Below, piece by piece: positions 2,842-63,839 of a DNA stretch of 63,839 nt (position 1 is the first letter of the stretch; each line of letters opens with the position of its first letter). Position numbers and translations under genes: made by a program. The notes beneath the pieces were generated by a model. It was given only the letters and a program-made list of their open reading frames with translations, did not search any database and was not told the origin of the DNA. Source of the stretch: Nitrospirota bacterium (lineage in GTDB: Bacteria > Nitrospirota > Thermodesulfovibrionia > Thermodesulfovibrionales > JdFR-88); NCBI GenBank assembly GCA_021813405.1, contig JAKAKS010000023.1, positions 1 through 63,839 on the forward strand. The letters are read 5' to 3'.

Positions 2842-4129
2842 ATAGATCGAAACTGAAAGTATTCCAGAGACCACAGCCCGGACACCTGCCCGCCCAGTCC
2901 GTGGCCAGATGGCCGCAGGAACCGCAGGAATAAAAAAGACGCCAGGGCTGTACGTCTATAGCTTTTCTGAATGCACGGGCTGCCTTTTCAAATTGTTCCC
3001 TCCGCAGATAAAGCTCGCCCAAAAGGCCGTACAGCGACGGATAGTTCTCGGCCGCCTCAAAGCCCTTCAGCATTTCAAGCGCCTCGTCTACCATCTCCAA
3101 CCTGTAATAGAGCTTGGCAAGCATTATCTTCAGCGCGGGATCCCCCGGTTTCCTGTTCAGTGCCTTGCGGTAAACCTCGATGGCCTTGTCGGGCTCGCCA
3201 AGGTTCAAAAGTAGGTCCTCAAGCCTGGCCAGCACCACAACGGAGCCGGTCTGCTCATAGCCTTTCTCCAGCAGTTCAACTGGCTCATCCGGCTCGCCCT
3301 CGTACAGCAGCACTTCGGCCGTTCCCAGATAGGCCGGGACAAAATCCTTGTCGAATTTTATTACGGAGCGGAAGTGCTTTCCAGCTTTTTCCATATCGCC
3401 CGCCTCCAGCCCCTGCCTGCCGCATTCGTAACGGTAGCCCTGAAGCCGGGCCTCCTCTTTCTTTGCGTCTATAAGATCCTGGTGCTTGAGGATGGATTTC
3501 TGCACCTCTATCAGCTCCGGCCAGTTTTCCATTTTTTCAAGTACAAAACGCTTTCTTTCAAGCGCGGAGAGGCTGTCGGCATCAATTTCTAGTATGTTTT
3601 CGGCAAAAGCCAGGGCCTCATCCAATCGGGAGAGGGCGCGCATCTGGGCCTCCAGTGAAAAGAGCGCCTCCAGGCTCCGGCCGCCAGTAGACGAAAGCGC
3701 CTTACGGTAGAACCCGGCGGATTCCTCGTGCCTCCGCGCCTTGGCCATAAGGTCCCCCATGCGTAAAAGCGCCTTTGTATGATTTGGCGATTCCCGCAGG
3801 ATATCACGCAATATCTTTTCGGCATCGGCCCTGTCGTTAGACAGGATGGCGTTTAAGGCCTTGGAGTAAAGCCCCTCTATGCGCTCCTCTTTTTTTTGCC
3901 TTTTTACGTCCCGGTAGTTATTTATGAACCGCTTTGTGTCCCGGAGGGCCACCAGAACGATCATCAGAAGCGCGCCAGCCAGTATCGCGCACAGCACAAG
4001 GCCGTACTTGGGCAGCTCATATGTATTGCCAAGAGGCACTCTGAACGTAATCGTCTCGGAATTGGGTATGGAAAAGGCGGCGATCATCAGCATGAAAAGG
4101 AGGAATATGATAGTTGCTATTTTGTTCAT
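2822..4129 (-). CDS. lapB: LapA-LapB fusion: membrane-anchored TPR protein with C-terminal rubredoxin-like zinc motif
   Basis: The 435-residue protein begins with two hydrophobic segments (about residues 4-22 and 43-63) separated by NSETITFRVPLG, the pattern of the small LapA (DUF1049) protein. A cytoplasmic run of tetratricopeptide repeats follows (about 90-390), and the C-terminus carries two Cys pairs, CGSCG and CPGCG, as in LapB/YciM. In E. coli LapB works with the FtsH protease to control LpxC and so lipopolysaccharide amount; lpxC lies elsewhere in this window (40616). Here the anchor of LapA and the body of LapB appear to be one polypeptide. The start overlaps the rlmH stop by 4 nt. 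LapB-type is confident; regulation of LpxC here is inferred. Confidence 0.82.
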   Translation of the reverse strand: MNKIATIIFLLFMLMIAAFSIPNSETITFRVPLGNTYELPKYGLVLCAILAGALLMIVLVALRDTKRFINNYRDVKRQKKEERIEGLYSKALNAILSNDRADAEKILRDILRESPNHTKALLRMGDLMAKARRHEESAGFYRKALSSTGGRSLEALFSLEAQMRALSRLDEALAFAENILEIDADSLSALERKRFVLEKMENWPELIEVQKSILKHQDLIDAKKEEARLQGYRYECGRQGLEAGDMEKAGKHFRSVIKFDKDFVPAYLGTAEVLLYEGEPDEPVELLEKGYEQTGSVVVLARLEDLLLNLGEPDKAIEVYRKALNRKPGDPALKIMLAKLYYRLEMVDEALEMLKGFEAAENYPSLYGLLGELYLRREQFEKAARAFRKAIDVQPWRLFYSCGSCGHLATDWAGRCPGCGLWNTFSFDLYGRTKL

Positions 4130-4587
4130 GCGTGGTGATAACCCTTTCCGCCGATTATTGAAAGGCCCCGGTATATCTGCTCCAGAAGGAAAACCCTGGC
4201 CAGCTCATGTGGCAATGTCATTTTTGAAAGAGACAGCATGCTGGCGGCCTTTTCCCTTACCTCGCCGGACACCCCGAACGCGCCGCCTATCACAAAGCGC
4301 CCCCCGCCTGAGGTTTCGATAAAGCGCGCAAACTCCGGGGAGCTCATCTGCTTTCCCCTTTCGTCCAGCAGAACATAGCCCTGCCCTGTGCCATGGGTAC
4401 CTTTTTCAGCCTGCTCCAGTATGCGCCTTCCTTCTTCGTCCAGCGCCTTGCCACCTGCCCCTTTTGCTTCTTTTATTTCCACAACCTCTACCTTGGCCAT
4501 CGACCTTATGTATTTAATATACTTCTCTATGCCTGATTTTATGAAATCCTCTTTTGTTTTGCCGGGCCAGATTAGTACGAATTTCAC
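4126..4587 (-). CDS. rlmH: 23S rRNA (pseudouridine1915-N3)-methyltransferase RlmH
   Basis: With the GTG start at 4587 the protein is 153 residues, the normal RlmH length; longer starts run into the preceding gene and encode a non-conserved Arg-rich stretch. It has the SPOUT features: an N-terminal strand VKFVLIWPGK, GYVLLDERGKQMSSPEFA, the glycine-rich FVIGGAFGVS of the trefoil knot, and a C-terminal LLEQIYRGLSII ending in YHHA. RlmH methylates the 3-position of pseudouridine 1915 in helix 69 of 23S rRNA using S-adenosylmethionine. GTGA overlap with rsfS shows operon translation with the ribosome-related neighbour. Confidence 0.93.
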   Translation of the reverse strand: MKFVLIWPGKTKEDFIKSGIEKYIKYIRSMAKVEVVEIKEAKGAGGKALDEEGRRILEQAEKGTHGTGQGYVLLDERGKQMSSPEFARFIETSGGGRFVIGGAFGVSGEVREKAASMLSLSKMTLPHELARVFLLEQIYRGLSIIGGKGYHHA

Positions 4588-62512: not shown

Positions 62513-62587
62513 GCCGGGGTAGCTCAGTGGCAGAGCAGCTGATTCGTAATCAGCAGGTCGTGAGTTCAACCCTCATCCCCGGCTCCA
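62513..62587 (+). tRNA. tRNA-Thr (anticodon CGT)
   Basis: 75 nt including encoded CCA. Acceptor GCCGGGG pairs perfectly with CCCCGGC; D-arm GCTCAGTGGCAGAGC; anticodon stem GCTGA/TCAGC with loop TTCGTAA, anticodon CGT; T-arm with GTTCAAC. The discriminator is T. A strong terminator follows directly. Confidence 0.95.
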
Positions 62588-62884: not shown

Positions 62885-63729
62885 ATGGCCAAGAGAGTGT
62901 TTATTGGCTTTACGGGATCTCTAGGCAGCGGCTGCACAACCGCTGCTAAGCAGCTATCGCAAAAAGGTTATAAATACATTTCAATCAGTTCCGATATTTT
63001 GGCCCCATTTGCTGCTGAAAAAAACATGCCATTTAGTACGGGCGAAGAAAAGCAGAATTTCGGGAATGTGGCTAGAAAGCTTTTTAGAGATGAATACAAA
63101 AAAAGATTTTTGAATGCAGTAGATGACGGAACCGACAAAATTGTCATTGAAAGCTTCCGTAACCCAATAGAAATAGATTTTTTTTAAGAGATGAATTCCC
63201 TCATTTTTATCTTATTGCCTTGTTTGCCCCCAAAAATTTACGAAGAGAAAGAAAGAATATTGATGAGAAGGAATTTGATACATTAGATAAAAGGGACCAA
63301 GGCGAAGTGGACAAACTCGGGCAGCAAGTAACGCGATGTGTTACTAATGCTGATATAGTCATTGACAATACAGAACATTGGAACACAGTAATAGATGCCA
63401 GAAACTTCTTTCAAAAAGTTGATGATTTCATCCAATTACTAGAGAAACCATACAGGGCGCCAACCTCAAAAGAAATGATGATGCACCTGGCTTACTCAGT
63501 TAGTTTGCAATCTAACTGCATTGGACGACAAGTAGGTGCAGTTATAGTTGATGAGCAATACCGGGTTATGTCAACAGGGTTCAACGATGTGCCTCCAAAA
63601 AGTGAATCGTGCTATGACCTTTATAGCGAATGCTATAGAAAAATAAAAAAACAGAAGAATTTTCAAGGACTGAAAGACGTAAGATATTGCTTTGCCTGTG
63701 GGGCTGAATTATCCGAGGCCGTTCAGTAA
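62885..63729 (+). pseudogene. P-loop kinase/deoxycytidylate deaminase fusion, frameshifted and C-terminally truncated
   Basis: The first frame (ATG 62885) encodes a CoaE-like P-loop domain (FIGFTGSLGSGCTTAAKQL, KYISISSDIL, FGNVARKLFRDEY) and stops at TAA right after a run of eight T (63178-63185). Reading one base back in that run continues smoothly (DFFLRDEFPHFYL, then LIALFAPKNLRRERKN) into the second frame, giving a 281-residue chain. It ends with the start of a cytidine/dCMP deaminase (MMHLAYSVSLQSNCIGRQVGAVIVD, GFNDVPPKSESCYDL, YCFACGAEL), but the stop comes before the catalytic HAE and PCxxC motifs. The fold combination resembles deoxycytidylate deaminases with an N-terminal kinase-like domain, including anti-phage dCTP deaminases. 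AT-rich, unlike the nuo region; most likely acquired. As it stands it cannot deaminate. Confidence 0.75.
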
Positions 63730-63839
63730 ACTGTGTCAATCCGTCTGACCCAGTAATCATATCAGACCCTCAGGTCCAGTTTCATCCTCCCTTCGAAAAA
63801 TACTGAAAGCTGTGAAACGGTTTGGCCCCAGTTCCTGGG
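63730..63839. other. Sequence after the truncated deaminase
   Basis: About 110 nt to the window edge with no recognisable continuation of the deaminase in any frame. It begins immediately at the premature stop, so a junction with foreign DNA here is plausible. It ends with CCCCAGTTCCTGGG, a partial palindrome. Confidence 0.35.

Follow-up and report, generated by a model that had tools for sequence, protein, structure and literature searches.

The right-hand end of the window, a 63,839-nucleotide stretch of Nitrospirota bacterium DNA that constitutes one contig (C41), carries what is probably a degraded copy of an anti-phage module that comprises two genes, has been moved horizontally and belongs to the deoxycytidine-nucleotide-deaminase kind. 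The gene in the window is doubly inactivated, by a shift of reading frame within a T run and by the insertion of an IS256-family element within the deaminase domain; it is an ordinary fossil, and the module cannot work as it stands in the source genome. The second gene of the module encodes a small zinc-ribbon protein and was not seen in the window because it is located on another contig (C52).

Deaminase-based nucleotide depletion is a known form of phage defence, the control of which has been described through the AvcI RNA. The clade to which the window's gene is assigned seems, when taken together with the zinc-ribbon gene coupled to it, to represent a form of this defence that has not been described before. 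A widespread sister clade with a conserved and closely coupled zinc-ribbon protein is a concrete candidate for a second control system, and its recognition would split a family that is now called by a single-gene model.

Anatomy of the broken gene and its missing half

The gene is contained in two forward-strand frames that are offset by one base. The kinase-like N-terminal domain (P0001, 62885–63187) comprises 100 residues from an ATG at 62885, begins MAKRVFIGFTGSLGSGCTT and ends IEIDFF at a premature TAA downstream of the frame slip; its P-loop reads GSLGSGCTT, with a cysteine where lysine is usual. The second ORF (P0002), beginning DEFPHFYLIALFAPKN, runs from 63190 to a stop at 63727–63729 (179 residues), and its residues 1–175 (63190–63714) form a linker and the front half of a deaminase, reaching the first two cysteines (CFAC) of a zinc-knuckle insert. 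The frame changes in a run of eight T (63178–63185, forward strand), across which homology is uninterrupted. The pieces were compared separately, without rebuilding the gene, and the breaks were entered as X in the alignments. P0001 and P0002 matched residues 3–103 and 105–275 of an intact relative (L048) with identities of 52 and 58%, and because both frames are homologous to this one continuous protein the slip is real and not a chance juxtaposition. An earlier note had likewise joined the P-loop to the deaminase front half across a one-base slip. That note also had the frame stopping before the HAE and PCxxC motifs, which is correct, but its four terminal residues (EAVQ) and the stop codon come from an insertion sequence that starts at 63715, the gene's own sequence on C41 ending at 63714. 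Homologues do not end at this residue but continue past it, and L048 runs through both breaks.

The gene is cut at 63714/63715 by the right end of an IS256-family element (63715–63839, reverse strand), which holds the 3' end of a leftward-reading transposase gene. The contig genuinely terminates at 63839, inside the element. Contigs C4, C36 and C26 also have these last 125 bases at their ends, and the assembly of C41 stops here because the element is repeated in the genome. The leftward product corresponds to a transposase C-terminus, with best matches of 60–72% identity to annotated IS256-family transposases; the 60-residue fragment had no Pfam match and the family was named through annotated plasmid matches, the assignment drawing on transposase homology (up to about 72% identity) together with short target duplications. 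The opposite end of the element, which includes the start of the transposase, lies at the beginning of contigs C52, C56 and C16. The flanks of C4 and C56 pair with a perfect 8-bp target duplication (TCCAAATC), as do those of C36 and C16 (TTTTAATA). C41 and C52 have matching inverted ends in matching orientation, and their duplication agrees at seven of eight bases, AATTATC being common and one base differing (AATTATCC at 63707–63714 on the forward strand, AATTATCA on C52 at L011:128–135). The assembly is also broken by at least three more copies of this element (C4/C56, C36/C16 and C26). Near the far end of C52 there is also a different transposase-like ORF (L011:9397–10785, reverse strand), which we take to be of IS256 (mutator) appearance.

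A whole-genome scan with the deaminase profile gave one front half (PF00383 positions 3–51) on C41, one back half (positions 51–101) on C52, and no further split of this sort. A single-sequence search of the genome contigs with the front half gave no match, and a search using a two-row alignment of the back half as the query succeeded. The remainder of the deaminase is thus present on C52, where the piece P0003 continues in frame through the zinc knuckle (CDSC), LHAEENA and FPCMLCAKK and matches residues 295–424 of L048. The paired IS ends, the complementary halves and the in-frame remainder together indicate that the gene was split by the IS256-family insertion. The gene had previously been thought either inactive or cut at the assembly edge; both hold, with the correction that the break is the insertion and the edge its consequence.

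Two other readings of these breaks were considered. The slip could be a phase-variation or programmed-frameshift switch and not a lesion, given that it sits in a homopolymer and that in another relative (L064) the frame likewise shifts within a T run near the slip position. This is very improbable: the two closest relatives (L048 and L049) pass through the region in a single frame and have no T run there, eight consecutive T are found at five further sites in the window, which makes the run at the slip unremarkable, other relatives are broken elsewhere, and the gene is in any case cut by the IS. C41 and C52 are separate contigs and their target duplication carries one mismatch, so that they might not be neighbours and might each carry an unrelated truncated deaminase; this is extremely improbable, as the halves are complementary and single-copy, each contig has the correct IS end and strand with a duplication at seven of eight bases, and both halves have the same best relative at consecutive coordinates. 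The only other unpaired right end, that of C26, has a flank that mismatches C52.

Family assignment and predicted fold

The earlier note had proposed a broken kinase-deaminase fusion related to the anti-phage dCTP deaminases, and the profile matches to the pieces bear this out. On sequence, the gene is a member of the anti-phage dCTP-deaminase superfamily, with a strong match along both the kinase-like and deaminase parts. The PADLOC dCTPase profile gave E-values of 2.2e-10, 7.5e-42 (front) and 7.8e-32 (back) for the three pieces and 6.9e-97 for L048. With the NCBIfam model 'anti-phage dCTP deaminase' (NF041025) the pieces scored 18, 117.9 (front) and 90.8 (back) bits, missing the equivalog cut-off of 400 bits, and the intact relatives also scored below 400 (L048 260, L072 270, L057 239 and L077 214 bits). 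A housekeeping dCMP deaminase of the ComEB type was excluded by scores of 15.1 and 41.2 bits against a 219-bit cut-off and by the fused kinase-like domain, ComEB being a stand-alone deaminase. Of the families suggested beforehand for a profile search, the gene belongs neither to the housekeeping dCMP deaminases nor to the AvcD clade, which is separate in the tree (SH-aLRT 100).

The tree of 54 proteins contained three groups: the AvcD-type proteins, long forms of approximately 560–800 residues (SH-aLRT 99) and short forms of approximately 380–500 residues (SH-aLRT 91). The window's gene groups with L048 and L049 (SH-aLRT 99) inside the short forms, and its identity and placement agree with gap-free comparisons; by its position in the tree it is a member of a third, 'short-form' clade of the superfamily. 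In 32 relatives HAE and PCxxC do not vary, and both are present in the C52 motifs given above, so that the family should be catalytically competent. In a further Clostridia copy (L221) HAE is replaced by HGE, and the zinc-ribbon gene still follows.

The AlphaFold model of L048 (pLDDT 90.4) consists of an adenylate-kinase-like domain and a dCMP deaminase, and a fold search of the PDB with this model matched archaeal adenylate-kinase-related proteins and dCMP deaminases. The N-terminal domain shares the fold of the archaeal proteins 3lw7 and 3h0k (UPF0200), with TM-scores to the target of 0.74–0.83, and differs from them in being fused to a deaminase and in having cysteine at the Walker A lysine position. 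This lysine to cysteine replacement occurs in the intact short forms and in most of the long forms inspected, which suggests that the domain has a sensing or regulatory task instead of kinase activity. The deaminase fold and zinc site are shared with the dCMP deaminases of T4 (1vq2), S. mutans (2hvw/5c2o) and human (2w4l) and with the bi-functional dCMP/dCTP deaminase of PBCV-1 (7fh4), all of which are stand-alone enzymes without a kinase-like domain or partner gene.

The short forms share with AvcD, the anti-phage dCTP deaminase (NF041025; PADLOC dCTPase; AvcID of Vibrio and E. coli, PMC10511110), the order of a kinase-like domain followed by a deaminase, the catalytic motifs HAE/PCxxC and a rare, mobile distribution. 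They differ from it in forming a separate clade, whose intact relatives reach 214–270 bits against the cut-off of 400, and in the zinc-ribbon gene that follows them; the searches described below gave no sign here of an AvcI-like RNA. The GSGC-type long forms (approximately 560–800 residues; Pseudomonas, Bacteroidota and provirus contigs) have the same GSGC P-loop and HAEEN/PCELCAKK motifs, but their kinase part contains a large extra region and no zinc-ribbon partner was present in any locus seen.

The zinc-ribbon partner gene

The partner ORF on C52 (L011:566–775) is intact, encodes 70 residues beginning MDRCPKCKKFTIGYDRYRGVSRCMSDGCSC, and starts one base after the deaminase stop. It is followed by a shortened GT87 glycosyltransferase (L011:784–1275, reverse strand) and then by sugar-transferase genes. 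The homologues in L048 and L049 have identities of 52 and 47% and overlap the deaminase end. In a survey of all loci most short forms were followed by a protein with the core CPKCG...YNSYFxxYxCxxC, whose start frequently overlaps the deaminase stop by 1 or 4 bases, and none of the long-form loci surveyed had it. Four invariant cysteines and the YNSYFxxYxC core are retained across Bacillota, Planctomycetota, Schekmanbacteria, WOR-3 and Desulfarculus; the protein is conserved at the protein level and its silent sites are saturated.

When the deaminase profile was applied to 391 Clostridia genomes it matched five, and the four strong partner matches all fell within those five and all adjoined the deaminase, an arrangement expected by chance at about 5e-9, with three of the five short-form genomes already in the sample where the partner was first counted. 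Of the two that were new to the sample, the partner was present in one (L221/L225) and absent from the other (L220).

Among the 33 short forms on the tree the partner was found in 18 of the 20 without a zinc insert and in 4 of the 13 with one; 18 therefore had the partner only, nine the insert only, four both (the window's gene, L048, L049 and L067) and two neither. The raw counts suggest a trade-off between insert and partner (Fisher p 0.0007), which is a hint only, because the tree contains just four or five changes and, with common descent taken into account, independent pairs do not support it.

No Pfam, NCBIfam or PADLOC family passed its cut-off with the partner, its fold was predicted poorly (pLDDT 62), and a fold search with this model gave nothing usable. 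No description of the deaminase/zinc-ribbon pair was found in the open-access literature, which is weak evidence of novelty, and the partner is apparently undescribed. Its conserved coupling to the deaminase is consistent with a small protein that probably regulates the enzyme.

An RNA resembling AvcI was also sought. Only the tRNA exceeded the Rfam gathering score, and the stretch upstream of the gene folds no better than shuffled sequences (z 0.41). Upstream gaps across the loci range from approximately 50 to 800 bp, and that of L049, at 53 bp, is shorter than the reported AvcI minimum of about 171 nt (PMC10511110). Small annotated ORFs occur just upstream of AvcD-type genes in E. coli (L045:2301–2486) and Photobacterium (L046:2249–2419), at positions where the AvcI RNA is expected, and have similar C-terminal endings (KKITW and QKIRW); they were checked as possible zinc-ribbon relatives and are unrelated.

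Distribution, proposed mechanism and alternative readings

The acquired AT-rich tract next to a tRNA that the earlier note described was confirmed, with 38.6% against 53.5% GC and, as its chromosomal neighbour, a tRNA-Thr (CGT; 62513–62587, forward strand) identified by ARAGORN and Rfam. No att-like copy of the tRNA end reaching 12 bases was detected in C52. None of the other searched members of the same genus or family carried the gene, and in three other classes short forms occurred in 1 of 113, 5 of 391 and 1 of 288 genomes (about 1% per class), so the clade is rare and patchy. The Desulforamulus putei copy (L072; deaminase 3128–4291, partner 4291–4470) is located 118 bp downstream of an HmaC-like protein (1121 bits), and the L055 copy lies between a type IIG-like protein and AbiEi/AbiEii, while L048, L049 and L057 sit among ordinary genes. 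Five relatives (L049, L056, L064, L086 and L087) are broken by frame shifts or stops. Short forms were looked for in viral contigs, phages and plasmids; the viral matches with a recognisable P-loop were long forms and the best plasmid matches were AvcD-type.

A defence role is favoured by the family link, the rarity, the AT-rich tract beside the tRNA-Thr, the defence neighbours and the breakage in relatives. The analysis establishes the gene anatomy, the insertion, the second half, the clade and the partner gene with its conservation and co-occurrence; this role is inferred, as are the substrate, the trigger and a regulatory function for the partner. In the mechanism proposed, which is part of the reading graded as probable at the outset, the first gene would be of the short form, its degenerate P-loop (kinase-fold) domain fused to a dCMP/dCTP-type deaminase, and the second the 70-residue zinc-ribbon protein, whose predicted ORF is still open in the source genome. 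The P-loop domain would sense nucleotide or infection state, and the deaminase, when released, would convert dCTP/dCMP to dUTP/dUMP and starve phage DNA synthesis. The zinc-ribbon protein may bind the deaminase on, or close to, the loop that separates the first motif from HAE, a putative contact through which it would hold or license the enzyme. Such control is likened to that in Vibrio, where AvcD depletes dCTP/dCMP on infection and the AvcI RNA controls AvcD (PMC10511110). More tentatively, and with greater doubt than confidence, we suggest that the short-form genes with their coupled zinc-ribbon microprotein might constitute a distinct two-gene defence type, in which the zinc protein or the zinc-knuckle insert replaces AvcI as the controller.

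The fusion could instead be a metabolic dCMP deaminase-nucleotide kinase of the salvage pathway that plays no part in defence, the zinc protein serving as its structural subunit. The deaminase half does resemble housekeeping and phage dCMP deaminases in its fold, the kinase part has the fold of nucleotide kinases, and ordinary genes surround some of the relatives; a salvage enzyme is nevertheless unlikely in view of the occurrence of about 1% per class and the absence from the searched genus and family relatives, the low GC beside the tRNA, the degenerate P-loop in which lysine is changed to cysteine, the defence neighbours of L055 and L072, and the frequent breakage of relatives. It is less likely again, and decidedly improbable, that the small zinc-ribbon ORF, though conserved, has no function or no relation to the deaminase and is merely carried downstream. 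This would fit the lack of a family match above cut-off and the short forms that have no partner, but not the four invariant cysteines and the conserved core motif across several phyla, the start codons that overlap or abut the deaminase stop, the conservation of the protein while silent sites are saturated, or the restriction of strong partner matches to deaminase loci among the 391 Clostridia genomes.

Several related loci show further arrangements. Downstream of the D. putei module (L072, after 4470) there is a sequence resembling a tRNA 3' end, which suggests that this module, too, was inserted at a tRNA gene. Viral and provirus contigs of IMG/VR (L134, L137, L139–L143, L145 and others) carry long-form genes without the zinc-ribbon partner. 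In another genome of the same phylum (G265) an AvcD-type gene (L040/L044) is divided between two frames and contains two TAA stops.
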